Below are positions 1 to 15,893 of a DNA stretch of 41,379 nt, in pieces. Each line of letters begins with the position of its first letter. Within the stretch, counting starts at the first letter, position 1. Location of the stretch: the NCBI GenBank assembly GCA_947642635.1, contig CANRTI010000010.1, positions 1-41,379 on the forward strand. The letters are read 5' to 3'. The notes under the pieces are model-generated. The model was not told the origin of the DNA and did no database searches. It saw nothing but the letters and a program-made list of their open reading frames with translations. The position numbers and the translations under genes are program-made. This stretch comes from an uncultured Mycoplasma sp. (GTDB lineage: Bacteria; Bacillota_I; Bacilli_A; RF39; UBA660).

Positions 1-322
<322 letters not shown>

Positions 323-385
323 TTATTTATTTTATAAATATTTGATGAAGCATTATCAAGTTTTTAAAGGACAAAATCCTTTATT

Positions 386-467
386 GGTAACGATAGCTTA
401 GTGGGTACACCTCTTCCCATCCCGAACAGAGATGTTAATAGATGTAAGCCATAAAAGTTATAGTTGC
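386..467 (+). pseudogene. rrf: 5S rRNA 5' half, interrupted by element (left junction)
   Basis: Positions 386-432 are a normal 5S 5' half: terminal-stem strand TTGGTAAC (384-391), helix II strand TTAGTG (398-403) and helix III CTCT (411-414) pairing with AGAG (428-431). After 432 the sequence stops resembling 5S. The helix II partner CACTAA is missing and only a short GTTGC (463-467) could close the terminal stem, leaving an ~82-nt molecule. The missing 3' half, ending in GTTGCCAA that pairs perfectly with TTGGTAAC, is at 12852-12904. This is therefore read as a host 5S gene split by integration, and the left chimera is probably non-functional. Confidence 0.85.
417..438 (+). repeat. attL: left core direct repeat in 5S
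   Basis: The 16-bp core CCATCCCGAACAGAGA (417-432) recurs exactly at 12836-12851. The next bases are TGTTAA here and AGTTAA on the right, giving a 22-bp repeat with one mismatch. The core covers helix III and loop C of the 5S rRNA, a conserved target. The crossover point cannot be fixed within the identical 16 bp. Confidence 0.85.
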
Positions 468-484
468 AAAAATAGTTAAAATTT

Positions 485-590
485 TAGTCGTGTTGATAGC
501 CTAGTGGACACACCCAACCCCATCCCGAACTTGGAAGTTAAGCACTAGAACGCCGAAAATAGTGTATGCGAAGATAGGAAAATGCGACTA
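485..590 (+). rRNA. rrf: 5S rRNA, complete, carried inside the element
   Basis: Complete 106-nt 5S gene. The terminal stem TAGTCG/CGACTA (485-490/585-590) extends by two G-U pairs. Helix II is CTAGTG/CACTAG (501-506/543-548) and helix III is CCAA/TTGG (514-517/531-534). The conserved CCCATCCCGAAC and GAAGTTAAGCAC segments are intact and an eight-T run follows. Compared with the split host 5S, helix II differs by a compensated T-A to C-G pair, and helix III is replaced on both strands (CTCT/AGAG to CCAA/TTGG). It lies between attL and the integrase, so it belongs to the element, and it is probably transcribed by read-through from the rrn operon. Confidence 0.9.
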
Positions 591-640
591 TTTTTTTTGA
601 TTAAAAAAGACTAAATCTTCAAAAATTTAGTCTTATTTTT
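591..640. terminator. Bidirectional terminator between 5S and integrase
   Basis: A T8 run directly follows the 5S. Then comes a 9-bp stem, AGACTAAAT (608-616) with ATTTAGTCT (625-633). It is followed by TATTTTT on the + strand and by TTTTTT on the - strand, so it can end both the rRNA transcript and the leftward integrase transcript. Confidence 0.75.
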
Positions 641-1871
641 ATGTCATTTTGCCGGTAGGTGTCTCACTAGGTGTCTCACTTTTTTCTTTCTTTTCTTCAA
701 ATTGAGTACGGAGACTAGTTATTTCATTAGCAAGATTTATCTTTCGTTCTTCGTACATATGCCCATATTCATTACTAGTTGTTCTTATATCTTTATGTCT
801 TAACCTTACCTTTACATCTTCCAATGTCTTACCCATATTAATTAGAAACGCTGCGTGGCTATGTCTTAATTTATGTGGCGTAATATTTTTCTCGATTCCT
901 GCCCGTTTTAAATACTTTTTAAGCATATCTTGAATCGCCCTACTACCAATTACTTCACATTTACCTCTATTATTAGCAAATAGGTATCTACTAGTGATAT
1001 TATGTTTTTTCCTATATTCCAGAAAGTCTTTATATGCTTCAACTGTAATATCATCAAGATATAAGTCATCCATTGACTCATCAGTTTTAGCATATGGTCT
1101 AATTTTACCATTATAATATGTTTCAGTAATATTTAAAGATGTACCTTTCTCTGTAGTTACTATACTATCTATTGAAAGTCCTAGTAGTTCACTAATTCTT
1201 AAACCTGTATAAAATAATAACTGTATTATAAACAAATCTCTAGTGTTATCAACAACAGAAAGTAAGTTTATAAACTCATCAGAAGTAAGATAGGGTTGTT
1301 TTTTCTTATTTTTCTTAAAGTTTTTAACAACTGCTGCTGGGTTATATGTAATTAACTTCTTTCTAACACAATAATTAAGAAAAGCAGATAACTGCTTATG
1401 TATTTTAATAAGTGTTTGATTCGCTAATTTTTTATCTTTTTCTCGTGAGCAAGGCATAGATAATAAATCATTGTGAAATTTAGTAATATGTTCTTCTGTA
1501 ATCGTAGCAATTTTAACATTGCCTAACTTTGGTAGTATTTGATTTTTAAATATTGTCTTTTTTCCTTCAACTGTAGATTCTGCTAAATTTCCTTTTCTTA
1601 CTTCAAGTTCGCATTCTTTAATGTAAGAATCAAACACATCTTTAAAAAGTTCAGTTTTTGTAGGCCGGCTATTTTCTTGTTGCAATTTAACTCGTTCTTC
1701 TGCAATAAAGTTTTGTGCTTCCTTTATTGTTTTAAAATTGGCTTTTCTTCTTTTAAATCTTTTATTATATATCTTATCATATAAGTTTAGACTTACTGCA
1801 TAAGTACCATTACTATTATGCTTATAAATATAAGGATAACTAGTTTTCGTGTAATTCTCTTTATTAAACAT
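639..1871 (-). CDS. int: Tyrosine recombinase / integrase
   Basis: 410-aa phage/Tn916-type integrase that would cut and rejoin the 5S att core. An N-terminal arm-binding region (about 1-70) and a SAM-like core-binding domain (about 75-185) precede the catalytic domain. Catalytic residues are visible: R225 (TGLRISELLG), K262, H333-x-x-R336 (HKLRH), H359 (LRHK) and nucleophile Y369 (NEYGH). The start is chosen from the upstream AGGAG about 10 nt before ATG. The last codons (SETPSETP) are encoded by the tandem arm-type repeat at 656-679, so gene and binding site overlap. Integrase next to one attachment end is the usual arrangement. Confidence 0.95.
   Translation of the reverse strand: MFNKENYTKTSYPYIYKHNSNGTYAVSLNLYDKIYNKRFKRRKANFKTIKEAQNFIAEERVKLQQENSRPTKTELFKDVFDSYIKECELEVRKGNLAESTVEGKKTIFKNQILPKLGNVKIATITEEHITKFHNDLLSMPCSREKDKKLANQTLIKIHKQLSAFLNYCVRKKLITYNPAAVVKNFKKNKKKQPYLTSDEFINLLSVVDNTRDLFIIQLLFYTGLRISELLGLSIDSIVTTEKGTSLNITETYYNGKIRPYAKTDESMDDLYLDDITVEAYKDFLEYRKKHNITSRYLFANNRGKCEVIGSRAIQDMLKKYLKRAGIEKNITPHKLRHSHAAFLINMGKTLEDVKVRLRHKDIRTTSNEYGHMYEERKINLANEITSLRTQFEEKKEKSETPSETPTGKMT
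656..679. repeat. Arm-type integrase sites, left: tandem 12-bp repeat
   Basis: Two perfect tandem copies of TAGGTGTCTCAC (656-667 and 668-679) lie inside the 3' end of int. Near-identical tandem units lie just inside the right end (12706-12729), and an inverted copy of the core follows at 12765-12774. Paired short repeats at both ends, distinct from the core, are the expected pattern for arm-binding sites of tyrosine integrases. Confidence 0.7.
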
Positions 1872-1908
1872 TAATTAAAACTCCTATCTTTTATAATTTT
1901 GAAATTTG

Positions 1909-1917
1909 TGCTATAAT
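1909..1917 (+). promoter_or_regulatory. Extended -10 promoter of the putative small RNA
   Basis: TGcTATAAT (1909-1917) is a full extended -10 element. The same TGcTATAAT stands before the tmRNA (15526-15534), the leftward gene at 10929 and the leftward gene at 12129, so it is a credible promoter form in this genome. The -35 is poor. Expected start is near 1924, reading rightward, antisense to the int leader. Confidence 0.65.
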
Positions 1918-1923
1918 AGGAGT

Positions 1924-2012
1924 ACAGAAAAAAAGTTGTTCTTAAGCCGAATTAATTTTTTATTCTGTACGCTTTATAGCGTTTGGCTAGTGTTGGTAGC
2001 ACTAGCTTTTTT
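1924..2012 (+). ncRNA. Putative ~90-nt antisense small RNA controlling the element
   Basis: It is bounded by the extended -10 promoter and by a strong intrinsic terminator (1985-2017). Predicted stems: ACAGAA/TTCTGT enclosing a ~33-nt loop (outer palindrome GTACAGAA 1922-1929 with TTCTGTAC 1963-1970), ACGCT/AGCGT (1969-1973/1978-1982), and the terminator hairpin. The loop contains 1935-1963, whose reverse complement occurs exactly at 2612-2640 in the xis/rep leader, so the RNA could form 29 continuous base pairs with that mRNA. It is also fully antisense to the leader of int. No ORF is seen in it. Expression is inferred, not shown. Confidence 0.6.
1935..1963 (+). repeat. 29-bp perfect inverted repeat, left arm
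   Basis: This is the exact reverse complement of 2612-2640 over 29 bases, beginning GTTGTTCTTAAGCC. The two arms flank the XRE repressor gene and its promoters. The leftward repressor/int transcript and the rightward xis/rep transcript therefore carry the same 29-nt sequence, in each case upstream of the recombination gene. Confidence 0.9.
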
Positions 2013-2017
2013 ATTTT
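1985..2017 (+). terminator. Intrinsic terminator of the small RNA
   Basis: 7-bp perfect stem GCTAGTG (1986-1992) / CACTAGC (2000-2006), extendable by a G-U pair, with a 7-nt loop, followed by TTTTTTATTTTT. On the opposite strand no T run follows, so leftward transcripts from the repressor could pass into int. Confidence 0.85.
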
Positions 2018-2367
2018 TAATTATCAATAATATTAACCGTATTTAAAATATATTTTTTTCCTTCAAGACTTAATTTCGATAATCTAGTCATAATCTCTAA
2101 CATTATTTTATTATCTTCCGAGTTGTCTATTATACCCATAATTTTACTTATATCTTGTTCTTCAGTAAGCATTAATGGTGATATATCTAATTTTTCTGCA
2201 AGTTTTTTTATTTTTTCAGGTTTAGCATAGCAAATACCTCTTTCATAATCTCTTAGAGTAGTGTAAGCAATTTCAGATTTTTTTGCTAGTTCTTTGGTAG
2301 TCATTCCTTTTATTGTCCTATAGTATCTAAGATTATTACTAAATACTTCTCGTTTTTTATTTATCAT
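2017..2367 (-). CDS. XRE-family HTH repressor (element master regulator)
   Basis: 116-aa Cro/CI-type protein. A helix-turn-helix spans about residues 8-62 (LRYYRTIKGMTTKELAKKSEIAYTTLRDYERG). The C-terminal tail is short and has no peptidase domain, so induction would be through a binding partner rather than RecA cleavage. The start ATG at 2367 is chosen because GGAGGTGT lies 5 nt upstream; an upstream in-frame start gives 10 more residues but no ribosome site. The gene is divergent from the xis/rep operon and faces four similar operators (2392-2512), the layout of a lysogeny switch. It probably represses the rightward promoter and regulates itself. Confidence 0.85.
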   Translation of the reverse strand: MINKKREVFSNNLRYYRTIKGMTTKELAKKSEIAYTTLRDYERGICYAKPEKIKKLAEKLDISPLMLTEEQDISKIMGIIDNSEDNKIMLEIMTRLSKLSLEGKKYILNTVNIIDN

Positions 2368-2391
2368 AATACACCTCCAACGATATAATAA

Positions 2392-2512
2392 TACCATAAA
2401 ATATGGTAAAATTCAATATACAAAAGCTTGAAAGTATTATAAAATATGTAAAATTAAATAAGAATACGATAAAATACGTAATAAAGTGTTGACAATACGA
2501 TAAAACACGGTA
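2392..2512. promoter_or_regulatory. Array of four repressor operators
   Basis: Four copies of a TACnATAAAATAyGGTA-like site: 2392-2408 (perfect dyad TACCATA-AAA-TATGGTA), 2434-2450, 2465-2480 and 2496-2512. The last lies in the spacer of the rightward promoter and touches its -10. The first lies just upstream of the repressor gene. Assignment to the adjacent XRE protein is inferred from position. Confidence 0.75.
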
Positions 2513-2516
2513 TAAT
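2489..2516 (+). promoter_or_regulatory. Rightward promoter of the xis/rep operon
   Basis: TTGACA (2489-2494), 16-bp spacer, TATAAT (2511-2516): both hexamers are perfect consensus. The expected start is near 2523. Operator 2496-2512 fills the spacer, so bound repressor would block polymerase directly. The transcript begins with a hairpin (TCAGC/GCTGA near 2527-2546). Confidence 0.9.
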
Positions 2517-2573
2517 AGAAGACATATCAGCCCAAACTGTAGCTGATTATATGAAATGAAAGGAGAGTATATT

Positions 2574-2615
2574 ATGAGATTAACCTTAAGGAATCTTAGG
2601 CAAGGCCACGGATAA
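2574..2615 (+). CDS. 13-codon leader peptide upstream of xis
   Basis: ATG at 2574 with a strong site AAGGAGAG about 6 nt upstream encodes MRLTLRNLRQGHG and stops at 2613-2615. The stop codon lies at the beginning of the 29-nt inverted-repeat arm (2612-2640), and the ORF covers a small hairpin (CCTTAAG with CTTAGG). A translated short ORF directly before a pairing target suggests that ribosome position affects RNA pairing or attenuation. Translation is inferred from the ribosome site alone. Confidence 0.55.
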   Translation: MRLTLRNLRQGHG

Positions 2616-2640
2616 AAAATTAATTCGGCTTAAGAACAAC
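2612..2640 (+). repeat. 29-bp perfect inverted repeat, right arm (small RNA target in leader)
   Basis: Exact reverse complement of 1935-1963. It lies in the 5' leader of the xis/rep mRNA, overlapping the leader-peptide stop and ending 11 nt before the GGAGGG ribosome site of xis. It is therefore a good site for RNA-RNA control of translation or transcript stability. Confidence 0.9.
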
Positions 2641-2662
2641 ATACTAAAATTGGAGGGAAAAG

Positions 2663-2833
2663 ATGAATAGTATTATGTTTGATATTAAAGAGTGTTCTAG
2701 TTACTTGAATATCTCGGTTGCGCTTTTACGCAAGTTGATAAGAAAAAATGAAATTCCCTATAATAGAATAGGGGCTAAACTTCTATTCTCAAAAATTGAG
2801 ATAGATAGATGGTTGAAAGAAAACCAAAATTAG
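2663..2833 (+). CDS. xis: AlpA/excisionase-like MerR-type HTH protein
   Basis: 56-aa protein beginning MNSIMFDIKECSSYLNIS. A winged-helix pattern of the HTH_17/excisionase family follows: a helix-turn-helix (SYLNISVALLRKLIRK), then IPYNRIGAKLLFSKIEIDRWL. Such proteins serve as recombination directionality factors or replication activators in small elements. GGAGGG lies 6 nt before the ATG. It is the first full gene after the rightward promoter and is followed 13 nt later by the next gene. It was found by reading the sequence; the family call rests on pattern. Confidence 0.8.
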   Translation: MNSIMFDIKECSSYLNISVALLRKLIRKNEIPYNRIGAKLLFSKIEIDRWLKENQN

Positions 2834-2846
2834 AAAGGAATTTATT

Positions 2847-3377
2847 ATGAATAAAAAATTAAATGAATCATATGTAACCGAAGTTGATGGAGACAAAACC
2901 CTAAATCTAGTTAATCATCTAGTGTTCATAACTAAAGATGAAGTAACTATATCTAGTCTATATGGAATTTTTGTAGATATAACTCTTACTAAAATAGATG
3001 TGTTAAAAGTTTCTAGATTTATTAGCGAAAATTACCCAAAATTCTCAACACTAAAATTGGAGAATGCAGAATTTGAAATATCCAAAGAATGGATAGTAAT
3101 TAAGAGTGGTTGTAAAAAGATACAAATACGCCCTGAAATGTTTGAAAAAGTAATCATACATATTGAAGAAAGGGAGAAAAAAATTATGGAGGGTAGCAAT
3201 GCTACTCAAGAAGTTTATAATAAAATTATAAACGCTACCACTAATCAAAACAATAATAAACCTAGTGAAGCAAAATCAATTACAACAGGACAAATGCAAA
3301 TTAAAAAAACTATCTATGATACTGTCATAGATACTATAGAAAAAACTAATTTAGGAGGAAATAAAAATGGAAAATAA
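2847..3377 (+). CDS. Hypothetical protein of the element's rightward operon
   Basis: 176-aa soluble protein with no recognised motif. The first ~115 residues look like a compact alpha/beta domain (LVFITKDEVTISSLYGIFVDITLTK). The tail is rich in N, T and K (ATTNQNNNKPSEAKS). It has a good ribosome site (GAAAGGA) and overlaps the next gene by 11 nt, so the two are probably translationally coupled. By position, between excisionase and replication helicase, it may be a replication or regulatory accessory, but nothing in the sequence proves this. Confidence 0.75.
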   Translation: MNKKLNESYVTEVDGDKTLNLVNHLVFITKDEVTISSLYGIFVDITLTKIDVLKVSRFISENYPKFSTLKLENAEFEISKEWIVIKSGCKKIQIRPEMFEKVIIHIEEREKKIMEGSNATQEVYNKIINATTNQNNNKPSEAKSITTGQMQIKKTIYDTVIDTIEKTNLGGNKNGK

Positions 3378-3708
3378 TTTGAACGAAGAAAGAATACAAA
3401 GATTTGGAGAAATAACGGTGCTTGATATAGATAAGAAAATAGAGGGTGGTTATATTAGGATATGTAATGAAGATGATTATATAAATAGTATAATAGTATC
3501 TATTTACGAAATAAGGAGTTTATCCGTTTTATCATCTATCTATCATTATGTCTCTATTGATACTGAAGATAATTCATTTAGGTATAATGATAAAACTATT
3601 GAAATATATGGCCCACTTGTAGGGTTAATATTTACAAGACAAGATTTTATGGCATTTGGCGATTATATTTATGAATTAGTAAATGGAGACCCTGCATATG
3701 GAGAATAA
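3367..3708 (+). CDS. Hypothetical protein upstream of the replication helicase
   Basis: 113-aa acidic protein without recognisable motifs. It starts inside the end of the previous gene with AGGAGG about 7 nt upstream of the ATG, and its last 11 nt overlap the start of the helicase gene. Tight overlaps on both sides indicate a single operon under the repressed rightward promoter. Function unknown. Confidence 0.75.
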   Translation: MENNLNEERIQRFGEITVLDIDKKIEGGYIRICNEDDYINSIIVSIYEIRSLSVLSSIYHYVSIDTEDNSFRYNDKTIEIYGPLVGLIFTRQDFMAFGDYIYELVNGDPAYGE

Positions 3709-4867
3709 AAGTAGTAATGATACAGCAAGTATAAATAATATACTTGCTGAATTAAAAGTTGATTATAAAGACCTTAGTGTGCTTACAACTGAATCAGAAG
3801 AATTAAAGCTAGTAGATTATTACTTTGATAGTGTAACCTGCTCTAATAAAGAGGTAGAAACATTACTATATGAAATAATTGGATATAGTCTTTGTAGGAC
3901 AGCTAAGCTGAATAAGGCATTCATACTCCAAGGCCCTGGTCGCAACGGAAAATCCGTTATTTTCAGAATTATATCTGCAATTTTGAAAGATAACAAATGC
4001 TCATATGAGCATTTAGAAAACTTATCAGGGACTAAAGCAGGAGCTAAAACTACAGTTAAGGCCTTAAAAGGGTGTACAGTTAATATAGCAGAGGACCAAA
4101 AACAGCCGAATTATATTAATTCTTCGATAATTACTCGGTTAATATCGGGAGAGCCTATATCTATTAAAGCAAAGGGTAATGAGCAAGAGGTATTAGAACC
4201 TTATGCAACATTGCTGTTTTCAGTAAATGAAGTAATTGACTTCAAAGAGACAGGGCTTTTTATAACGGACCGTTTCATTGTAATACCATTTCGGGCTACA
4301 TTCACTGATAGCAATAATAATAGAAATATTAACATAGGAGAAGAATTATGTCAACCTCTAGCGTTGCAGATTATAGCAACTAAGGCCATTGAAGCGTTTA
4401 AGAAAGTGCTAGAGAATGGTAGATTTACTATACCTGATGTCGTAGCAGAAGCAACTAGAAACTACTTCATGGAATGTAATAATGTTGCAGAGTTTTGCAA
4501 TTTATATCCAATAAAGACAATTATAATTAAGGCAAAATATTATGAAGAATATCGCAAATGGTGTAAATATAATAATAAGGAAGCTGTTAGCAACTCAATA
4601 TTTGGGAAAGAGGTTTTAGCTCTAGGGTATAGGGCCGAAAGATACTCATTTGCTAATAAAAGAGAAACTTACTATGCTTCTCCAAAATTTAATAATGTTG
4701 ATAGTAGGGATATTTATAATGAATATCTTAGTAAAAATGGAATCACGGAAGAATCAGCAAAACATTATGATGAAAAAGTTTTAAAAGAAACATTTGGAGC
4801 AATTCCTTTTAGTGATTATTTATGCGAAAGCATTTATAATAAGACTGATGAAATTGAAAATGCTTAA
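3698..4867 (+). CDS. SF3 (D5/P4-like) replication helicase, no primase domain
   Basis: 389-aa superfamily 3 helicase of the phage/plasmid primase C-terminal type. Walker A is GPGRNGKS (79-86), the Walker B-like segment is VNIAEDQ (about 128-134), motif C is FSVNE (about 174-178), and an arginine-finger region TDRFIVIPFRATF follows. The N-terminal archaeo-eukaryotic primase domain of full P4/D5 proteins is absent; only ~75 residues precede Walker A. A C-terminal DUF5906/winged-helix-type tail is likely. ATG 3698 is preferred over 3683 because GGAG lies 9 nt upstream. It probably drives replication of the excised element, with host primase recruited separately. Confidence 0.88.
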   Translation: MENKSSNDTASINNILAELKVDYKDLSVLTTESEELKLVDYYFDSVTCSNKEVETLLYEIIGYSLCRTAKLNKAFILQGPGRNGKSVIFRIISAILKDNKCSYEHLENLSGTKAGAKTTVKALKGCTVNIAEDQKQPNYINSSIITRLISGEPISIKAKGNEQEVLEPYATLLFSVNEVIDFKETGLFITDRFIVIPFRATFTDSNNNRNINIGEELCQPLALQIIATKAIEAFKKVLENGRFTIPDVVAEATRNYFMECNNVAEFCNLYPIKTIIIKAKYYEEYRKWCKYNNKEAVSNSIFGKEVLALGYRAERYSFANKRETYYASPKFNNVDSRDIYNEYLSKNGITEESAKHYDEKVLKETFGAIPFSDYLCESIYNKTDEIENA

Positions 4868-5327
4868 ATGTTTTACAATGTCCCTGTGAGCCTCTAGTAG
4901 GCTCTAGGGGAAGTCTTATTATATAGGGCGTAAAAAATTTTGTAAATATAGATATGCCCCTGTAGGACTTATAGAAGCCCCTAGAGGGGTTTTATTATGG
5001 AATTGTCCTATGCCACTATGGCAGAGGGATAAGTGAATCTTTGTACAGTTATTCTTAAATACATTTTTCCATTATAAAAGTACGAAGTACTTTTATAAGT
5101 GTATCAATTAAAGATACATTTCACAAAAAAAACGCAATGCGTTAGATACTTGATTAGATGTTAAAAAAAAGGGTGCTCTTATATCTATTTAACATCTAAA
5201 AATTATACTAACACAATGCGTTATACCTAAATATATACTTAGTGAATAAGGTAGATTCTTTAAAAGGTAAATCAGACCATAAGAAAACTATAGGTATTAC
5301 ACTATAGTTAGTTCTTACATAATTTTT
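4868..5327. other. Hairpin-rich non-coding region, possible replication origin (left part)
   Basis: No convincing gene. Stem-loops in order: TCCCT-GAGCCT/AGGCTC-AGGGA (4881-4910), CCCC/GGGG (4978-4989) followed by TTTTATT, TGCCA/TGGCA (5011-5023), a 12-bp perfect stem TTATAAAAGTAC/GTACTTTTATAA with a GAA loop (5072-5098), TGTATC/GATACA (5100-5118), palindrome AACGCAATGCGTT (5131-5143), and an 11-bp stem TAGATGTTAAA/TTTAACATCTA (5155-5198). The first two may terminate the rep operon. The cluster directly downstream of a replication helicase is a reasonable candidate origin. Confidence 0.5.
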
Positions 5328-6706
5328 GAGAGTGTAAAAAATTCTGTGTAAATAGTCTAACCATGATAATTGAAGCAATCTACTGCTTCTTTTTTTGTTA
5401 CTTAAATAATAACATATAATATTAAATTTTCAAAGAACTAAATTCTACCATCAAACATAATTGATAGTTCTCCTAAAATCATATCCCAGTTTCTATATCT
5501 ACTGGTCCATTTTTTCATGATATTTTGAGTAGCTAAATATAAACATTTCATTAAAGATTCATCAGTTGGAAATACTGCTTTAGTCTTAGTATACTTTCTA
5601 AAACATCTATTTAATGATTCAATAGTATTGGTGGTATACATGATTTTTCTTAAGTCTTCAGAATAACTAAAGAATGGACATATAGCATCCCAATTTTCTT
5701 CCCAATTTTTAAGTGACGTAGGATATTTATTTTGCCATTTTGTCTTCACTTTTTGTAATTGTTCATATCCTTCTTTCTCATTCTTAGATGTATATATTGT
5801 TTTTAAATCATTACAAAATGATTTCATATCTTTATAATAAACAAATCTAACTGAATTTCTTATCATATGGACAATGCATCTTTGTTGAATTGTATTTGGA
5901 TAAGCTGTTTCTATTGCTTGTTTAATTCCTGTTAATCCATCACTACACATTATTAATATGTCTTTTACTCCTCGTTGTTTTAAATCGTTAAATACACTTA
6001 ACCAAAATTTAGCTGATTCATTTTCTCCGATCCATATTCCTAAAATATCTTTTTCTCCTTCATCTGTAACTCCTAAAACTATATAAGCTGCTTTTTTTAC
6101 TACTGTATTTTCTTCTCTTACACTAAAATGTACTGCATCTATAAATACTATTGGATAAATACTATTTAAAGGTCTATTTTGCCATTCTTTTATTTTGGGT
6201 AGTATTTGATCGGTTATATTACTTACCATTGTTGCTGATACTTCTATACCATATAAATCCTGTATTTGTTCATTTATTTCTCTTGTTGATAATCCTCGAC
6301 CATACAATGATATTATTTTATCTTCTATACCTGAAACATCTCGCTTATTTTTAGGTACTATCTTTGGGTCAAATTCTCCATTTCTATCTCTTGGTGTTGA
6401 AAACTCAAATTCTCCAAATTCACTTTTTAATGTTTTCTTACTAGTTCCATTTCTATAATTAGTTTTATCTATTTTTTTATCATATTTAGAATATCCCATA
6501 GAGCTTTCAAATTCTGCATTCATCATTTCTTGTAATGAATCTTTAAATAAATCTTTTATTGCACTTGATAAATCTTGTGCTGTTTCTATTTCATAATTTT
6601 CTTGTAATATTTTTAATAATTCTTTTCCTTTATTCATATAAAAAATCCTTCCATTTCTATTTTATCATGGAAAGATTCTTATTTACACAGATTTATTTAC
6701 AGACTC
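5328..6706 (-). mobile_element. IS256-family insertion sequence
   Basis: Terminal inverted repeats: left 5328-5355 and right 6679-6706, matching at 23 of 28 positions by eye, both starting GAG and sharing TCTGTGTAAATA. One transposase gene lies between. The length of ~1.38 kb fits the family. Flanks 5320-5327 (TAATTTTT) and 6707-6714 (ATATTTTT) agree at only 6 of 8 positions, so a target duplication is not proven. A hairpin with T run at 5372-5396 lies inside the left end. The IS interrupts the non-coding region between the converging rep and clpP operons. Confidence 0.85.
5438..6637 (-). CDS. IS256-family (mutator-type) DDE transposase
   Basis: 399-aa full-length transposase. The DDE triad is visible: D167 (VFIDAVHF), D233 (MCSDGLTG) and E340 (NTIESLNR), with the CxxH motif (C254-H257) and a C-terminal segment ending in WDMILGELSIMF typical of the family. 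GGAAGGA precedes the ATG. No frameshift or stop is seen, so it is probably active. It is accessory to the island and not part of its control system. Confidence 0.96.
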   Translation of the reverse strand: MNKGKELLKILQENYEIETAQDLSSAIKDLFKDSLQEMMNAEFESSMGYSKYDKKIDKTNYRNGTSKKTLKSEFGEFEFSTPRDRNGEFDPKIVPKNKRDVSGIEDKIISLYGRGLSTREINEQIQDLYGIEVSATMVSNITDQILPKIKEWQNRPLNSIYPIVFIDAVHFSVREENTVVKKAAYIVLGVTDEGEKDILGIWIGENESAKFWLSVFNDLKQRGVKDILIMCSDGLTGIKQAIETAYPNTIQQRCIVHMIRNSVRFVYYKDMKSFCNDLKTIYTSKNEKEGYEQLQKVKTKWQNKYPTSLKNWEENWDAICPFFSYSEDLRKIMYTTNTIESLNRCFRKYTKTKAVFPTDESLMKCLYLATQNIMKKWTSRYRNWDMILGELSIMFDGRI

Positions 6707-7338
6707 ATATTTTTAGTTAATTATTTTTTTCTTACGCTATTTTAACTTATTACATTTCGAATCTCATTATTTTTTTAATTACTATTATTCATTTAACTAT
6801 TACTTTTTAATCATATTTTTCATTCTTTTTCATTATTAGTATTATCATATCTTTTAGTATCATTTGTTTTTTAATTATTACTTATATTGTTTAAATTACT
6901 TATTGCGTAGTCAAGAGAAATTTTAGTCCCAAAATACTATAAATCTCTCTTTTAAATTTTAATATCTACATTATTAAATAACTACGGCTAGATAAATTAA
7001 CGGTCTGAGTTCCATTGTGTTGCCACAAGTGTTCAGTATGACGGTTAAGGTAGACTTTATTCTTATTCAGATTAGGGCTGATAAGAGAATTACTCCTAAA
7101 TTGTTCCGTATCTAGCATGAGCAAGTTTTTTAAGTATTACAATAAAGTAATAGTTGGGACATTATCTCTACTTGGGTCCTTTTTTAAAATGTAGAATCTG
7201 GTATTCTTGAACTTACCATAATAATATATACGAACTTAATAACTCGGTATAGTACTTAACCTTATAATTCTATACGAAGTACATAGTGTTCCGTTTACTA
7301 AAATATATTGGAATTTCACTATGCCACTATACCAGATA
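6707..7338. other. Non-coding region between IS and clpP (right part of split intergenic)
   Basis: AT-rich sequence without a convincing gene. A leftward ORF of 49 codons (about 7119 down to 6970; contains TEHLWQHNGTQTVNL) has no ribosome site and could be a remnant. Two short repeats are shared with the region left of the IS, in reverse order: TACGAAGTAC (5081-5090, 7273-7282) and CTATGCCACTAT (5008-5019, 7319-7330). Before IS insertion this and 4868-5327 formed about 1.1 kb between convergent operons. Confidence 0.45.
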
Positions 7339-7929
7339 TTATATTAGGTTTTTGGTTAGCATTTTGTCGCCTAAGCCATATTTTAGTGCTTCTTCTGCAT
7401 TGAACCATCTATCCTTTAACTGAATGTCGTGTCTAACTTGCTTTATGGTCTTTCCTGTGTTCTCTGCTAATAGTTTAATGATACGCTCATTCAATGTATT
7501 AGTATGTTCATAATCAATTTTTAACTCGCCAACTTTTCCCATATTAAAAGATGAAACTTCGTGAATCATAACCTCACTATTAGGGGTTATATATCGTTTG
7601 CCTTTTGTTCCACCACTAAGAAGCACAGCAGCCATTGAAGCACAACGACCTATACATATTGTCTTCACATCACTTTTGACCATTTGCATAGCATCATAAA
7701 TAGCCATTCCTGCTGATACTGAACCACCTGGGGAATTGATATAGAATATTATATCCTTTTTACTTTTAATAGTATCTAGTTTTAACAACTGGTCGACTAT
7801 ATTTTCTGCAACTTCTGCATCAATGGTTTTATTCAAACGAATTATGCGATTATCAAATAAATTAACATTTGAGGGAGTTTTAGATTTGGTTTCTTTCTTA
7901 GTTTTCTTTTTTGCTTTATTATTAGCCAT
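7339..7929 (-). CDS. ClpP-like serine protease, element-borne
   Basis: 196-aa ClpP/crotonase-fold protease. The catalytic triad is visible: S98 (GRCASMAAVLL), H123 (MIHEVSS) and D173 (LKDRWFNAEEAL). INSPGGSVSAGMAIYDAM (about 64-81) forms the oxyanion and substrate region. A lysine-rich extension (about 20 residues) replaces the usual N-terminal axial loop, so interaction with a ClpX/ClpC ATPase is not assured. ClpP-like enzymes in phages often serve as prohead proteases, but no capsid genes are present here. It is the last gene of a leftward trio (ssb, hydrolase, clpP) with 15-nt spacings, implying co-expression. Confidence 0.9.
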   Translation of the reverse strand: MANNKAKKKTKKETKSKTPSNVNLFDNRIIRLNKTIDAEVAENIVDQLLKLDTIKSKKDIIFYINSPGGSVSAGMAIYDAMQMVKSDVKTICIGRCASMAAVLLSGGTKGKRYITPNSEVMIHEVSSFNMGKVGELKIDYEHTNTLNERIIKLLAENTGKTIKQVRHDIQLKDRWFNAEEALKYGLGDKMLTKNLI

Positions 7930-7944
7930 TTTCTTAATTCCTTT

Positions 7945-9132
7945 CTATATATTATAAGTCTTTTTGTTCTTTAAATGTTTGGTTTTGTATGGTAGATTCA
8001 ACTTTTCAAAATCGTGTGAATTTTCTCCGTGTATTGGTATTATTACACTAGGTTTAACAATATTACAGACTTCTGTAATACCTTCTTTAGTTGCGTGTCC
8101 ACTGGTGTGTAAGTAATGGTAATCTTTTGGAACAAACTTAACAATACTTTCATCAGCAGTAGATCCTTGCAAGTATCCTAGCCATTGAGAATAGATAAAT
8201 ATATTATCTTTGAAGTTAGGGCTGTTAATAAACCTTTTTGAAAAGTAATTACTTCGGACTAGCATACAAAAACCATTATCCAGCATTTCTTGATAAAACT
8301 TTTTATCAAAACTCTTAGCATTTGAAAAGTTATAATAGTCTTTATATTTTTTGCTAGTCTTTGTTACATAATCAAGTATCTCCTTTTGGTAGACATCACA
8401 TATAAATAACTTTCTTCCTGCTTCTTCGTTTGCGTGGTAAAAAGAGGCTATCCTGTCAATATTAGTAGAAGCACACATTATAAATACATACTTATTATTC
8501 TTTATTAGGTCAGCTGCTTCTTTCTGTAGCATTAGTTCGGACATAAAAACCTCATCAAGTCTTGAAAGGGTAGTATGCTCACAAATAAGGACATCAACTT
8601 TGCCTATTTCCTTAAGTGTTTTAGGTATTGCATTCTCACTAGGACCGTGTGTACGAAAGTCCCCAGTATGTAAAACTCTTTTACCTTCTGCCTCTATAAG
8701 AAACATATAACTATCAAAAGCCGAATGGTCTACTCGAATCGGAGTTAAAGTCATATCTCCAACTTTTAGAGGCACATCTTGTTCAAATGTTTTAAAAGTC
8801 TCTAATCTATCAATATGTTCTTGTGTTACTTCTGCAATGCTAGGCTCTTTCATTTTCTTTTGATAAATAGTAAAAATCTCTTTTGCTTGTTCTCCAATGT
8901 AGATAGGAATATCCTTTTTTACTTGCATATATTCGCCAATATGGTCTAAATGATAATGAGTTATAAAAACAGCATCACATTTTTTACTAATCTTAGCGAC
9001 ATTCACTTTTACTTTACTTGTACTATTTGGAAGATTAGAGCCTACATCAATAAGTATCCTCGTATTTTTAGTTTTGATTTCGGTTACACAACCACCAATT
9101 TGATTAATACCCCTGTGAATTTTAATTTGCAT
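7945..9132 (-). CDS. MBL-fold beta-CASP hydrolase (RNase J-like nuclease)
   Basis: 395-aa metallo-hydrolase. Zinc ligands: H59-x-H61-x-D63-H64 (HYHLDHIG), H136 (VDHS) and D158 (LHTGDFR). beta-CASP motifs: ICEHTTLS (E185), TSGHATKEG (H346) and PIHGE (H368). This is the RNase J/CPSF73 architecture without the C-terminal RNase J extension, so RNA or DNA 5' exonuclease/endonuclease activity is the best guess. It sits between clpP (15 nt) and ssb (15 nt). An SSB-protease-nuclease trio in a mobile element suggests processing of nucleic acid in replication or phage interference, but this is inference. Confidence 0.88.
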   Translation of the reverse strand: MQIKIHRGINQIGGCVTEIKTKNTRILIDVGSNLPNSTSKVKVNVAKISKKCDAVFITHYHLDHIGEYMQVKKDIPIYIGEQAKEIFTIYQKKMKEPSIAEVTQEHIDRLETFKTFEQDVPLKVGDMTLTPIRVDHSAFDSYMFLIEAEGKRVLHTGDFRTHGPSENAIPKTLKEIGKVDVLICEHTTLSRLDEVFMSELMLQKEAADLIKNNKYVFIMCASTNIDRIASFYHANEEAGRKLFICDVYQKEILDYVTKTSKKYKDYYNFSNAKSFDKKFYQEMLDNGFCMLVRSNYFSKRFINSPNFKDNIFIYSQWLGYLQGSTADESIVKFVPKDYHYLHTSGHATKEGITEVCNIVKPSVIIPIHGENSHDFEKLNLPYKTKHLKNKKTYNI

Positions 9133-9147
9133 AAGATATTATCCTTT

Positions 9148-9459
9148 CTAACTTTGAGTTGCTAGTTTTTTGTTATTTGATAAGAATGTTATTCTTTCAG
9201 CTATTACAGAAATTCGATTCTCATTGCTTTGTATTCTGCCTTTAGCACCTATTAAGTCGCCTTTTTTGCAATATTGAAGTACATTACTTCCTATATAACT
9301 CATTAACTCAATAGGAACTAAATCCGTTTCATATTCTCCATTTTCATTTTTAAAATTACGACTAATTTTTAGCATTAGTCTATATGAAGTCTTCTCCTCA
9401 TTTTCCATTTTTTCAATATCGTTGTTTATTCTGCCAATAAGCACAACATTATTCATCAT
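9148..9459 (-). CDS. ssb: Single-stranded DNA-binding protein, short
   Basis: 103-aa OB-fold SSB: begins MMNNVVLIGRI, with an RLMLKISRNF strand and the GAKGRIQS segment that replaces the usual VEGRLQ. It lacks the glycine-rich linker and acidic DDDIPF tail of housekeeping SSB, so it probably cannot recruit the usual tail-binding partners. AAGGT precedes the ATG; either of two adjacent Met codons may be used. First gene of the leftward ssb-hydrolase-clpP operon; likely coats element DNA during replication. Confidence 0.88.
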   Translation of the reverse strand: MMNNVVLIGRINNDIEKMENEEKTSYRLMLKISRNFKNENGEYETDLVPIELMSYIGSNVLQYCKKGDLIGAKGRIQSNENRISVIAERITFLSNNKKLATQS

Positions 9460-9482
9460 TGTTTTACCTTCTTTCTAGCATA

Positions 9483-9504
9483 CTAGTAATTTACATATTA
9501 CTAG
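9483..9504. promoter_or_regulatory. Dyad upstream of ssb
   Basis: 8-bp inverted repeat CTAGTAAT/ATTACTAG separated by 6 bp, 24 nt upstream of the ssb start. Its position suggests an operator for the leftward ssb operon. A half-site TACCATA like the repressor operators lies about 20 bp further upstream (near 9520). Regulator unknown. Confidence 0.4.
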
Positions 9505-9549
9505 CATCTAATAATAAAATACCATAATTACTTTTTTAAATCGTAATAC

Positions 9550-9583
9550 AAAATAAAAAGAGAGACTGCTTAGTACAGTCTCT
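9550..9583 (-). terminator. Terminator after the RsgI-like gene
   Basis: 8-bp stem AGAGACTG/CAGTCTCT (9561-9568/9576-9583). Read leftward it is followed by CTTTTTATTTTG, so it ends the transcript of the gene stopping at 9601 and separates it from the ssb operon. Confidence 0.75.
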
Positions 9584-9600
9584 AATACTATTTACTATTT

Positions 9601-10929
9601 TTAATTATTTGCATTTCCATAAAACATTTCATATTCTTTATTTATTTGTTCCTCTGTTTTGTCTTCTTTTGGAAAGTCTTTCATTGATTCTCCTCCTACG
9701 TTGTTATCATCTAGCATTCGAATATCTCCTGTTTTATAAGTGCCATTTACTAAATTGAGTTTATTAAGTGGTAATACATAAAAATGATTTCCTTCCAAGA
9801 GAGTATCTCCCATATTACCGTTTGACATATTAATACATCCGTTACATTCATTGTTACCATAACTAAAATTAGTAACAGTTCGATAAGAACCAGAAATATA
9901 CATACTACTTAAATAAACTTTATCAATACCTAAAAGCTCTCCACCTTCAACTCCACTACTTTTATACAGAATATCAAATTTATCACACACTTTCATCAAT
10001 TCTTGATAACCATCTAAGATTTCTAATAAATTTGTTAAATCTTGAGGTTGTCCTATCTTTTGAAATAATTTGGTGGTTATATAGCACTCTAATTTTCCGT
10101 TATCAAAATTACAAGTATAGTTTTTTCCATAATCTTTATCTTTTTTATAAGTTTCAAATAATTTTTCAGCATAACTTTTTTCATTATTAAAATATTCTTG
10201 TTCTTTTTCATCTATAATTTCATTTTTATATTTATTCTCTATTTCTTCGGTTATTTTTTCATATGTTACATATGAGATATTATCTACTTTTTCCTTTATT
10301 TTTTCGTTTTGACTAAATATTTTAACTCCATTATTAACATTAATTCCTTTATCACGAGCAGTATCATATAAAGTTTCAATAGCATCATTTATGGCTTTAT
10401 CTTTTATATCAACTGCATTAAATACATTTTTGCAATCTTCATTTAAACAAGTAAAATTATTAATTTGATTTCCTTTTAACTCTATCAATAATCTAGGGTT
10501 GATTTCAACAATAACATAAGAAATTTCATCTTGTTTTGTTTTTTGCAAATTACTTAAAAACTTTTGATGATTATATCTATCAAGATTAATTTTACCTATA
10601 TATAATAGTCCTAAAATAAAGAAGAATAAAATAATTTTTCTAAATAATTTCAAACTATGTTTAAATTCAATGACATATATTTTCTTATCATCATTTTTAA
10701 TATCTAATGGTCTTATGAATTTTGTTTTTTTACCTAACCTATTTTTTAGAATATCAAAATTATCTAGTTCGTATTTATTTTTTACTTTTACTTTTTTTTC
10801 TTTAGTTCCATTACTAATTATTACTTTCTTATCTATATCTTCAATAATATTTTCTTTTGATACATAAATACATTTTTTTCTTTTTCTGACTTTTTTATAA
10901 GTGACTTCATCTAATATAATTTTCTTCAT
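9601..10929 (-). CDS. Membrane protein with RsgI-like anti-sigma middle domain
   Basis: 442-aa single-pass membrane protein. A basic cytoplasmic region (1-96) is followed by one membrane helix (about 97-112) and a large extracytoplasmic part. Residues about 138-205 (VEINPRLLIELKGNQIN...LNEDC...AVDIKDKAINDAIETL) resemble the conserved segment of RsgI-type anti-sigma factors (DINPSIEL, then NxDG). The rest is Lys/Glu-rich, followed by a Gly/Asn-rich segment with CxxC (ECNGC). No cognate sigma factor lies nearby. An extended -10 promoter precedes it (10976-10984). The domain resemblance is by eye; the role in the element is unknown. Confidence 0.65.
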   Translation of the reverse strand: MKKIILDEVTYKKVRKRKKCIYVSKENIIEDIDKKVIISNGTKEKKVKVKNKYELDNFDILKNRLGKKTKFIRPLDIKNDDKKIYVIEFKHSLKLFRKIILFFFILGLLYIGKINLDRYNHQKFLSNLQKTKQDEISYVIVEINPRLLIELKGNQINNFTCLNEDCKNVFNAVDIKDKAINDAIETLYDTARDKGINVNNGVKIFSQNEKIKEKVDNISYVTYEKITEEIENKYKNEIIDEKEQEYFNNEKSYAEKLFETYKKDKDYGKNYTCNFDNGKLECYITTKLFQKIGQPQDLTNLLEILDGYQELMKVCDKFDILYKSSGVEGGELLGIDKVYLSSMYISGSYRTVTNFSYGNNECNGCINMSNGNMGDTLLEGNHFYVLPLNKLNLVNGTYKTGDIRMLDDNNVGGESMKDFPKEDKTEEQINKEYEMFYGNANN

Positions 10930-10975
10930 ATTGTACCTCTATAATTTTAATTTTATTGCTCCATCTATGTTAATA

Positions 10976-10984
10976 ATTATAGCA
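10976..10984 (-). promoter_or_regulatory. Extended -10 promoter of the RsgI-like gene
   Basis: Read leftward: TGcTATAAT, about 45 nt upstream of the ATG, which is preceded by GAGGTAC. Same form as the tmRNA promoter. Confidence 0.6.
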
Positions 10985-11014
10985 TAAATTTTTCACTTCT
11001 CTCATACATATTAA

Positions 11015-11833
11015 TTAATCTTTATCTCTAAGATTTTTTAATGCTGTATCTTTGTCTGGGTTTATAGAACGATAATGGGACATTCTATCAGCTGTTTCTT
11101 GATAAGCATACCATATAGTTTCGCTTTCATAATAGTCTATAATATGTTTATTAGTTGTAGTGCATTTTACAAGAATTATTTCATCATCTGTTTTTTCTTT
11201 TGCTTTACATTTTAATTCGTTTGATGTAACATCAGGCTCAAAAGCTAAAGTTAAAACACTCTTAGGAATTTCTTGTAATGCGTATCGTTCGGCTTCATAT
11301 CCACCTTCTATACGACCACCATTACTACACATATTAACGAAAATAATTATTAGTACTATTATTGAAATTATACCACTAATTACTTTCAAAATATCGGGCT
11401 TATCTGAACTATTTTCATCTTGATTTGATGTTTTTTGCGTTATAGGTTCTGTCGATTGCTTAATTTCTGTTTTTTTATTATTTGTATCTCTAATTGTTGC
11501 ATTCCTCTCTAATTTTCTTTCATTTTCTTTTAGATTATTGTTTTCATAGTTAGGTATGCTTTCGTTAGAATCTCTTTTGTTTTGCCTAGTAATACTATTC
11601 AATAACTCTAAAAGTTGTTTATCCTTTGCAATATTAAGTTCTATTGGGTTACCTCCAAATTTAACAATAGATAATACTTGGTTTTCTTCATCAAAGTTGT
11701 AACTTTTAATATTAGAGTAGGGAATTTTGATAAGTTGGTCGTTGGTAGTTACTGCAAAACTATCATCTTTGATTTTTAGTATAGCTTCTTCTTTATTTGC
11801 TCCATTTAATAGAGTAGCGTTTAACTTTCGCAT
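11015..11833 (-). CDS. Membrane protein with N-terminal PH-like domain
   Basis: 272 aa. Residues 1-80 look like a small PH/GRAM-type beta domain (ATLLNGANKEEAILKIKDDSFAVTT...IPYSNIKSYNFDEE). A polar Asn/Lys/Glu linker (85-145), one membrane helix (about 149-168) and a ~100-residue outer domain with two cysteines follow. It starts 2 nt after the stop of the upstream GRAM gene, so the two are co-transcribed. Element-specific function unknown; the PH assignment is tentative. Confidence 0.65.
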   Translation of the reverse strand: MRKLNATLLNGANKEEAILKIKDDSFAVTTNDQLIKIPYSNIKSYNFDEENQVLSIVKFGGNPIELNIAKDKQLLELLNSITRQNKRDSNESIPNYENNNLKENERKLERNATIRDTNNKKTEIKQSTEPITQKTSNQDENSSDKPDILKVISGIISIIVLIIIFVNMCSNGGRIEGGYEAERYALQEIPKSVLTLAFEPDVTSNELKCKAKEKTDDEIILVKCTTTNKHIIDYYESETIWYAYQETADRMSHYRSINPDKDTALKNLRDKD

Positions 11834-11835
11834 CT

Positions 11836-12129
11836 TTAACCCTCCAAATTTTTAATTGCATTATTGATAGCAACAACCCAGTCTTTTTTTCCAGTAACTG
11901 CAAACACATCTTTACCAGTATTAGTTATAATTGTTAAATTGTTTGATAAAAAACCACCAGCTTCTACACTTTTGATATTTTCCAATTCAACTTCAAATTC
12001 TTTCTTTCCAGCATTAACTTTATGTCCTTCAAAATAAAGTGTTTCATTTGTTAAAATTAAATGCCCACCTTTACTTCCAATTCCATGAAACCAATTAGCT
12101 GCACCTTTTTTTAAAATTTCTTCTTTCAT
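11836..12129 (-). CDS. GRAM/PH-like domain protein
   Basis: 97 aa, a single GRAM-like domain: GGHLILTNETLYFEGHK, then the strand ELENIKSVEAGGFLSNNLTI and a C-terminal helix DWVVAINNAIKNL. ATG 12129 is selected because AGGAGGAG lies 6 nt upstream; a longer in-frame form starting at 12189 would run through the promoter. First gene of a leftward pair. Soluble GRAM proteins bind lipids or partner proteins; here no partner can be named. Confidence 0.75.
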   Translation of the reverse strand: MKEEILKKGAANWFHGIGSKGGHLILTNETLYFEGHKVNAGKKEFEVELENIKSVEAGGFLSNNLTIITNTGKDVFAVTGKKDWVVAINNAIKNLEG

Positions 12130-12154
12130 AAATTTACTCCTCCTATACTCCAAT

Positions 12155-12184
12155 ATTATAGCATAATTAAGATATTTTTCACAA
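12155..12184 (-). promoter_or_regulatory. Promoter of the GRAM/PH gene pair
   Basis: Read leftward: TTGTGA (12184-12179), 18-bp spacer, TGcTATAAT with -10 at 12160-12155. It is followed by the ribosome site and ATG at 12129. Confidence 0.65.
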
Positions 12185-12197
12185 TACATTTTAAGTA

Positions 12198-12291
12198 AAT
12201 AACTTAAAATAATTAAGTTATTCGTTTATGGTTAAAAAGTCTTATTTCGGGGATAATTATTACTGAGATTTACTAAGTACATAACTTAGTA
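12198..12291. promoter_or_regulatory. Two palindromic operators between divergent genes
   Basis: Inverted repeat AATAACTTA/TAAGTTATT with 7-bp gap (12198-12222), and TACTAAGT/ACTTAGTA with 5-bp gap (12271-12291), sharing the half-site core ACTTA. They lie between the leftward GRAM gene and the rightward XRE gene at 12305; the second nearly touches its ribosome site, consistent with autoregulation. Confidence 0.55.
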
Positions 12292-12304
12292 TAGGAGGGC
12301 TACA

Positions 12305-12607
12305 ATGAATTATACCGACAAAGAGAAGAAAGACCTATTAACTTTAATAGGTATGAATATCAATTACTATCGTTATCATTGCAATAACACTAAAATAATG
12401 AATGAAAAAGGTTTTGTTACTATTGAAAGACTTGCAGAGGAAATAGACAGCAGTCCTAATATGCTCTATAACCTCACAGCCAAGAATGTAGAGCAAGGTG
12501 TATCAGTAGTGTTCCTTGATAGATTGGCTCGTGCCTTGAATGTTAGTTTATATTGTTTCTTTTTAAATACTCCAATACAAAACCCTCCAAAATATTCTAA
12601 ACAATAA
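12305..12607 (+). CDS. XRE-like HTH DNA-binding protein near the right end
   Basis: 100 aa with a Cro/CI-like helix-turn-helix (VTIERLAEEIDSSPNMLYNLTAKNVEQGVSVVFLDRLARALNVSLYCFF, about 39-88). AGGAGG lies 7 nt upstream of the ATG. Two palindromes precede it and are candidate operators. It is oriented outward toward attR and is distinct from the repressor at 2017. It may control the cargo genes to its left. Confidence 0.82.
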   Translation: MNYTDKEKKDLLTLIGMNINYYRYHCNNTKIMNEKGFVTIERLAEEIDSSPNMLYNLTAKNVEQGVSVVFLDRLARALNVSLYCFFLNTPIQNPPKYSKQ

Positions 12608-12705
12608 AACAATTAAAATATTAATAATTAATATAATAAATATGATATAATTAAGTATAAATAATTAATAACATATATTATTTAAAAAATGTTAACAGAA
12701 ATTAA

Positions 12706-12774
12706 CAGGTGTCCCAAAAGGTGTCTCAAAATCTAAAATAAAGTATAATAAATTAGAATATTTTAGGACACCTT
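12706..12774. repeat. Arm-type integrase sites, right end
   Basis: Tandem 12-bp units CAGGTGTCCCAA (12706-12717) and AAGGTGTCTCAA (12718-12729), similar to the left pair at 656-679. An inverted copy AGGACACCTT lies at 12765-12774. The spacing to attR (about 60-130 bp) fits arm sites of a tyrosine integrase. The stretch 12608-12705 is AT-rich with nothing else recognisable. Confidence 0.7.
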
Positions 12775-12835
12775 CAAAAAATTAAAAACCACGATAAAAT
12801 AAGGCGTAACAAGATGTGATAATAGTAGAAAGAGT

Positions 12836-12904
12836 CCATCCCGAACAGAGAAGTTAAGCACTAATACGCCGACGATAGTGTATGCGAAAATAGGAAGTTG
12901 CCAA
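12836..12904 (+). pseudogene. rrf: 5S rRNA 3' half, displaced (attR junction)
   Basis: The 16-bp core (12836-12851) is followed by a normal 5S 3' half: GTTAAGCACTAA with helix II strand CACTAA (12859-12864), the ACGCC...GATAGTGTATGCGAAAATAGGA arm, and terminal strand GTTGCCAA (12897-12904), then T9. The terminal and helix II strands pair with the 5' fragment at 384-403, not with the intact 5S at 485-590. This identifies it as the other half of the split host gene. It has no 5' half and no promoter, so it is inert. Confidence 0.9.
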
Positions 12905-12993
12905 TTTTTTTTTGCTTATAAATATCTATTTTTAAATAGATTTTTTTTATTTGTATAAATTGTTTAGTTTTTGTTAAATAATAGTATGAAGAC

Positions 12994-13040: not shown

Positions 13041-13493
13041 ATGGATTTTAAATATATATCTAAAAGTGTGGAAGACACACTAACAATTGCAGAAAATATA
13101 GAAAGTGAAAAATTTGAAAATATGGTAATATGTTTAGATGGAGAATTAGGTAGTGGAAAAACAGTTTTTGTAAAAGGTTTTGCTAGTGCTTTAGGGATTG
13201 ATGACAATATTACAAGTCCTACTTTTAATATTATAAAAGAGTATTTAAATGGTGAGCTGCCTCTTTATCATATGGATGTTTATCGTTTAGATGAAGTATC
13301 AGAAGATATAGGAATTCGTGATTATTATAATATGGGCGGAGTAACTATAATAGAGTGGGCAGAAATTATTAAAGATAAATTACCGGAAGAAAGATTAGAG
13401 ATAACATTTAAATTAGTCGATGAGGATACTCGCGTGTTAGTATTTAAACCTTTGGGTAAGAAATATGAAGATTTATGCGAATCAGTATTGTAA
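13041..13493 (+). CDS. tsaE: tRNA t6A synthesis ATPase TsaE
   Basis: 150-aa P-loop ATPase. Walker A is GELGSGKT (34-41), and the family segments SPTFNIIKEY and IIEWAEII are present. It energises the TsaBD complex that makes N6-threonylcarbamoyladenosine at tRNA position 37. AAAGGTGAG precedes the ATG. First gene of a compact tsaE-tsaB-acetyltransferase-tsaD operon, a common Firmicute order. Standard length and intact. Confidence 0.95.
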   Translation: MDFKYISKSVEDTLTIAENIESEKFENMVICLDGELGSGKTVFVKGFASALGIDDNITSPTFNIIKEYLNGELPLYHMDVYRLDEVSEDIGIRDYYNMGGVTIIEWAEIIKDKLPEERLEITFKLVDEDTRVLVFKPLGKKYEDLCESVL

Positions 13494-15542: not shown

Positions 15543-15893
15543 GGGGTAGCTTGGTTTCGACATATAATTACTAGAAATGATTGCAAGTGGTAGACATACC
15601 TTAAATGTATAAAAAAATAAATAACGAAACTAATTTTGGTTTCGCTCCTCAATACGCTTAATATAGCGTGGAGCACTTTATAATAACTTTGCTTATAGAG
15701 ATATTATAAGGTTAATTAATATAAGATATATTATTTTATTTGATTAATGTAGAATAATGAATGATTAGTTAATCTCGTTATATAGAAAGTGTGTTAGATC
15801 TAACTATATAATTAAATAAATTCTAACTAAACTTGTAGGATATTGTTTTATAGGTTATATTGGACAGGAGTTCGATTCTCCTCTACTCCACCA
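15543..15893 (+). ncRNA. ssrA: Transfer-messenger RNA (tmRNA)
   Basis: The 5' end GGGGTAG pairs with CTACTCC before the encoded ACCA (15889-15893). The T-arm GGAGTTCGATTCTCC and the 5' GCTTGGTTTCGACA are canonical. The tag frame ends at TAA 15659-15661 and reads NNETNFGFAPQYA (the resume codon is not certain), followed by the conserved helix CGCT/AGCG-GGAGC. It ends in -YA instead of the common -ALAA. It rescues stalled ribosomes with SmpB. Confidence 0.95.

Follow-up and report, generated by a model that had tools for sequence, protein, structure and literature searches.

An integrative element occupying about positions 423-12847 of the window, the 41,379-nucleotide contig of an uncultured Mycoplasma sp. 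analysed here, is inserted in the 5S rRNA gene of its host, at the rrn-tsaE locus, and carries, just inside attL and in the orientation of the rrn operon, a complete 5S rRNA gene of its own. The element splits the host 5S and, very probably, supplies a replacement 5S to the ribosomes. The position, direction, conservation, mobility and structure of the carried 5S are established by sequence comparison, while the later steps, from transcription to ribosome assembly, are put forward below in conditional terms. The initial annotation had already placed a complete 5S between attL and the integrase gene, and a full-length Rfam match (model positions 1-120) at 65.3 bits, against a cut-off of 38, bears this out; the letters that it quoted for the host (CTCT, 411-414, and AGAG, 428-431) and for the carried gene (CCAA, 514-517, and TTGG, 531-534) are correct, as is the compensated helix II pair, T-A in the host and C-G in the carried copy. 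One point has to be amended: the host gene is more than altered in its core, it is actually split, a half at 383-427 being followed by element DNA. The features of the locus are given in Table 1.

Table 1. Features of the 5S locus and of the integrated element, in window coordinates.
Feature	Position	Strand	Basis
Host 23S rRNA, 3' end	1..326	+	RF02541 positions 2600-2925, 327 bits
attL, 5' half of the split host 5S, ending CGAAC	383..427	+	Matches 5S 5' halves of the genus
Crossover segment CGAACA	423..428	+	attL/attR/attB/attP comparison, 8 elements
Element leader	428..485	+	Complementarity to host 5S half, predicted closed hairpin
Carried complete 5S rRNA gene	486..590	+	RF00001 65.3 bits, full length; kept in 8/8 elements; covariation
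T-run immediately 3' of carried-5S helix I, presumed transcript end	589..598	+	Sequence; T-run after all carried copies
Tyrosine integrase, 410 aa	639..1871	-	PF00589, 2.3e-27
Cro/CI-type repressor	2017..2397	-	HTH_3; PHROG transcriptional regulator
P4-family primase/helicase, C-terminal part (replication)	3683..4867	+	TIGR01613, 9.2e-41; phrog_864
Mutator-family (IS256-like) transposase	5438..6637	-	PF00872, 2.1e-116
ClpP-like serine protease	7339..7929	-	PF00574, 1.9e-58; 75-94% in sisters
Metallo-beta-lactamase-fold nuclease-like protein (RNase J-like, 395 aa)	7945..9132	-	76-96% in sisters
Single-strand binding protein	9148..9459	-	PF00436
Small HTH protein beside attR	12305..12607	+	HTH_26, 4.2e-5
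attR, host 5S 3' half, then its T-run	12842..12906	+	attL/attR comparison
Host tsaE	13041..13493	+	PF02367; synteny with element-free congeners, where tsaE follows intact 5S

The contig starts inside a universally conserved stretch of the 23S gene, and the two halves of the host 5S lie 12.4 kb apart. The 3' half of the host 5S, at 12836-12906, has the core CCATCCCGAACAGAGA[T/A]GTTAA in common with attL, and joining the host flanks of the window in silico yields an ordinary 5S of this genus. Among 38 genomes of the same genus, the empty site consists of one intact 5S directly before tsaE in all 24 loci where both genes are in reach. Beyond attR, the host gene order is tsaE, tsaB, a gene for a GNAT acetyltransferase (rimI-like) and tsaD; further along, a tmRNA at 15543-15893 scores 101 bits with Rfam, yet was missed by ARAGORN.

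Integrases at 74% identity or more were found in eight genomes, which represent eight genera of one family, the seven sister elements sharing this integrase at 74-87% identity. The screen covered samples of 386 genomes from the family, 385 from the order and 346 from the class, which overlap, and at the thresholds used a close integrase was absent from the remaining genomes of these samples. The elements measure about 10-12 kb and reside in tiny-genome uncultured bacteria. All eight share the same order, namely the 23S end (where the contig reaches that far), the 5S 5' half, a leader of 58-69 bases, a complete 5S, a T-run and the integrase gene, and in all of them attR contains the 5S 3' half; no related 5S-targeting element without an internal 5S was encountered, as each of the eight with this integrase carries one, with a changed helix III. 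Direct repeats, at 423 (attL) and 12842 (attR) in the window, combined with an intact attB in element-free relatives, identify a site-specific integrative element in 8/8 cases. The reconstructed attB of one of them (L050, genome G527) corresponds to a real intact 5S on contig C76 of the same MAG, and that of another (L096, genome G238) to the 5S of another species of its genus, at a tree distance of zero. To the right of attR, several genomes have tsaE, while G527 has a gene for an ABC-F type ATPase and G238 an unrelated region; the right flank thus varies, and the target is therefore the 5S itself. In viral contigs, neither a close relative of the integrase (one of the searches being weak, with a junk row in its query alignment) nor a match to a 44-base pattern of the carried 5S was found, and integrase identity was below 32% among the matches listed for phage and plasmid records.

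The integration target is the loop C/helix III region of the chromosomal 5S. Two bases to the left of CGAACA differ in four of the eight elements, with the host version in attL and the element version in attR, and the second base after CGAAC differs in five, this time with the element base in attL and the host base in attR. Since the flanking polymorphisms segregate oppositely on its two sides, strand exchange is, on this comparison, confined to CGAACA. A reading of helix III as an inverted repeat bound by the integrase was unconvincing, its arms agreeing at 5/8 positions only.

Several lines of evidence indicate that the carried copies are maintained as 5S RNAs. They score 62-68 bits against RF00001 (model 1-120), which exceeds the gathering score but is lower than for most native 5S genes (mostly 66-82 bits). 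When 25 pairs were tested on the seven distinct carried sequences, standard pairs were formed in all 175 cells; six pairs, in helices I, II and III, are changed on both sides, and helix III occurs in two forms, CCAA/TTGG and CCTT/AAGG, both of them paired. None of 500 shuffles reached the covariation score of the carried 5S, and sliding the partners abolishes the signal. Given these compensatory substitutions and 100% pairing across eight genera, the carried 5S is, as judged from its sequence, under selection as a working 5S; it differs from that of the host at roughly one position in four. A promoter of its own is unsupported, with a single 9/12 match where 1.1 are expected. At the T-run downstream, a terminator scan gave no call; the family's native 5S genes, L023-L047 for instance, have a T-run that abuts helix I, and the 5S stem itself may act as the terminator stem.

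Whether the occupied hosts have another 5S at their disposal bears directly on the role of the carried gene. The MAG of the window is 94.5% complete and 1.31 Mb in size, and only attL, attR and the carried copy match 5S in it, which leaves the latter as the only complete 5S found. More generally, no second complete 5S was found in seven of the eight occupied genomes, all of these genomes being MAGs or drafts in which the apparent lack of a second rrn operon could be assembly loss. G257, a relative assembled in one contig, has a single 16S and a single 23S gene, hence one rrn operon, and in G040 the only 23S found reads unbroken into the element. The exception is G527, where, in addition to the occupied locus, a second rrn locus has an intact native 5S preceding tsaE; its assembly forks at the 5S, both contigs beginning about 44 bases before the core. 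The window contig, in turn, enters the element without interruption after some 425 bases of rRNA operon and, unlike that of G527, does not fork at the 5S, an argument against another, identical rrn end in its genome. Of note, the empty 5S-tsaE locus of G527 and its occupied 5S before the ABC-F gene (L197, L198, L203) can be read as two rrn loci or as mixed strains. The intact copy of G527 would fit with the carried 5S being a decoy, or the fossil of an earlier host that became linked to attP through a past imprecise excision and is dispensable given another rrn operon. This explanation is nonetheless unlikely: it is at odds with the selection for a working 5S evidenced by the compensatory changes, with the seven genomes where the carried copy stands alone and with the single rrn operon of G257.

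The other genes of the element were also inspected. In the integrase, R225, H333-K334-x-R336, H359 and Y369, the catalytic residues, are invariant in the eight homologues. The insertion sequence with the Mutator-family transposase is found only in the copy of the window and has no homologue in the seven sister elements. The ClpP-like, RNase J-like and SSB genes (7339-9459) are conserved as a set across elements, the RNase J-like protein at least as well as the integrase; this protein has a weak match to Lamassu LmuA (2.5e-6), and a 43% homologue of it is encoded in a viral contig (L110). The small HTH protein encoded beside attR is a candidate excisionase or regulator. Linkage to the conserved RNase J-like protein and ClpP-like protease, together with the extent of divergence from the host 5S, could suggest that the carried 5S is functional, but for the benefit of the element, for example by changing the make-up of the ribosome, by acting as a regulatory RNA or by serving as an L5/L18 bait. 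We consider this very unlikely, as plain replacement is sufficient to explain the rrn-operon place and direction of a gene whose host has no other complete 5S, and as the known 5S stems are all retained in the carried copies.

Movement of the 5S together with the element is best illustrated by L096 and L097, which reside in different genera. Their leaders (74/74) and carried 5S (105/105) are identical; the 3.4 kb that follow agree at 99.9-100% of positions, and a stretch of 1.15 kb at the opposite end agrees at 99.8%. The host flanks, in contrast, are only 87.4% identical for the 23S end, 80% for the 5S 5' half and 74% for the 5S 3' half, without meaningful similarity farther out, and the boundary of similarity coincides with the core at both ends. 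An element that is about 99.9% identical in two genera, between flanks that are divergent on both sides, is one that has moved between hosts; as the elements are near-identical and the host rRNAs divergent, the 5S therefore travels with the element. Over the eight elements, identity is 93% among carried copies, 85.8% among host copies, 76.0% between a carried copy and its own host and 75.8% between a carried copy and other hosts, and the eight carried copies form one clade in a tree of about 100 sequences (support of 0.951). Native tandem 5S genes do occur in the family without any element, at L202 (G257:C1:889889-890207), where a single rrn operon has two 5S, and at L201 (G379:C108), with two as well; a promoter-like stretch lies upstream of the second tandem 5S of G257. 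That the full 5S of the window is such an ordinary chromosomal copy, captured or separated by rearrangement and not belonging to the element, is nevertheless scarcely credible, because the members of a native tandem are alike and retain a target-type helix III, whereas the carried copies form their own clade at 76% identity to any host, lie inside attL in 8/8 cases and are shared between genera, at up to 100% identity, along with the element, and because the element-free congeneric loci described above have one 5S rather than a tandem pair. A tandem duplication as the origin of the present location is ruled out by the L096/L097 comparison, but the carried gene may, in the distant past, have arisen from a tandem 5S. 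The replacement, or rescue, function initially proposed for this gene is by comparison strongly supported, by its presence in all eight elements, its single clade, its movement between genera and its compensatory evolution.

A replacement 5S of this kind could operate as follows. The integrase would act on attP and on the loop C/helix III region of a chromosomal 5S, exchanging strands within CGAACA. As the sequences show in 8/8 elements, integration cuts the host 5S and places the complete element-borne 5S directly downstream of the 23S gene, in the same direction and beside attL. Transcription from the rrn promoter would pass from the 23S gene into the broken 5S half and on through the leader to the carried 5S, as far as the T-run. 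The carried 5S, the only complete one found in most of these genomes, would then be processed and assembled into ribosomes, and excision would restore the host 5S.

In this scheme, the leader would fold onto the broken half and thereby avoid its misfolding with the carried 5S. In 8/8 elements, its sequence can pair with the broken half of the host 5S; for the window, none of 500 shuffled leaders gave a predicted fold of host half plus leader as stable as the real one, and 0-3 of 500 did so for the other seven. The number of pairs expected to form between the broken half and the carried 5S is close to zero when the leader is the real one, against means of 0.2-6.8 when it is shuffled. In predicted folds of the broken half, leader and carried 5S together, helix I of the latter still forms for seven of the eight elements; in L098, the carried 5S is predicted to fold poorly with the native and shuffled leaders alike. 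Closing off the broken half is accordingly the role that we propose from these models, but the leader could equally be a processing signal. The host half with leader (383-472) scores 33.9 bits with the full RF00001 model, and this match had suggested that the leader might derive, in degenerate form, from a 5S 3' half; folding predictions give a fold-back hairpin instead. The attL hybrid thus has no normal 5S 3' half and is predicted to yield a short hairpin-like RNA, in contrast to the restoration of a 3' end seen with tRNA genes.

The changed core of the carried gene had been proposed at the outset to confer resistance to self-integration, a proposal with which the comparison is compatible. 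The helix III bases beside the core differ from all eight attB sites in 8/8 carried copies, but the CGAACA segment itself is altered, to CGAACT, in 6/8 only and is retained in the other two. A carried copy with a changed helix III is probably a poor substrate for its own integrase, with which the sequences are consistent. However, a native 5S close to the carried clade (L078, genome G310) already has CCGA/TCGG in helix III, so that the change may have been inherited from an ancestor rather than selected, an explanation that fits equally well. Of the 117 chromosomal 5S copies sampled in the family, 109 have a target-type helix III; the common helix III is present in all eight occupied hosts, but at this family-wide frequency a test of host target preference is powerless. 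In addition, an element-free congener (L101, G012:C9, 5S at about 33067-33171) has a native CCTT/AAGG helix III, as do the carried copies of L098 and L099, possibly reflecting resistance, gene conversion or chance.

Structural RNA genes frequently serve as integration sites and are then restored (PMC8371274, PMC10111431): with integrative elements targeting tRNA or tmRNA genes, the target regains its 3' end from attP (reviewed in PMC8371274), which carries replacement sequence (PMC10111431). The element described here resembles these in its tyrosine integrase and in targeting a structural RNA gene; the function of the target would likewise be kept, and expression would likewise come from a host promoter. 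In its form, the repair departs from the analogy drawn initially with such elements: the target is a 5S rRNA gene cut in its middle, no 3' end is fused, the broken gene stays a fragment next to which a complete separate gene is supplied downstream, beside attL, the replacement has a changed core, and the leader pairs with the fragment. With P4-like and PICI satellites, the element shares a size near 10-12 kb, an integrase, a CI-like repressor and a P4-type primase; however, no capsid-hijacking gene was identified here, nor a packaging interference gene in a PHROGs search of ten element proteins, and membership is not claimed. Site-specific integration and spread between genera are also features of integrative mobilizable and conjugative elements, and no relaxase, conjugation or type IV secretion gene was found among the main ORFs searched (Pfam, NCBIfam and PHROGs). 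Finally, more than one 5S gene per genome is also seen with native tandem or orphan copies, as in G257, G379 and Francisella, where a 5S gene lies outside the rRNA operons (PMC3479022); in contrast to the carried copy, these are chromosomal duplicates without integrase, att halves or mobility.

No published element that integrates into a 5S gene or carries a replacement 5S was found in the literature searched, subscription papers and preprints being outside its scope, and the novelty of a 5S-replacing element is accordingly provisional. On the same provisional footing, what is new is the supply of a complete and separate replacement gene, for an rRNA, with the broken half left in place; the confinement of crossover to CGAACA and the folding of the leader onto the broken host half, as seen in silico, are new as well.

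rRNA genes are the textbook case of resistance to horizontal replacement. Here, a mobile element inserts into one of the best-conserved parts of the 5S, and makes up for this with a full gene, itself passed between genera. This provides a natural test of 5S divergence, as a 5S of 76% identity would still serve the L5, L18 and L25 proteins and the 23S rRNA of the host. On the practical side, attB is present in most members of the family, the integrase is possibly useful for site-specific insertion, and caution is called for when analysing MAGs of this family, whose 5S copies may not be the host's own. We lean towards the stronger view that, where the host has a single rrn operon, all of its ribosomes would have an element-encoded 5S, with an insulating leader and a protective recoded core, the ribosome being in part, and reversibly, horizontally acquired. 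In any event, some cells of this family appear, from their sequences, to make their ribosomes with a 5S that is a mobile element's own.
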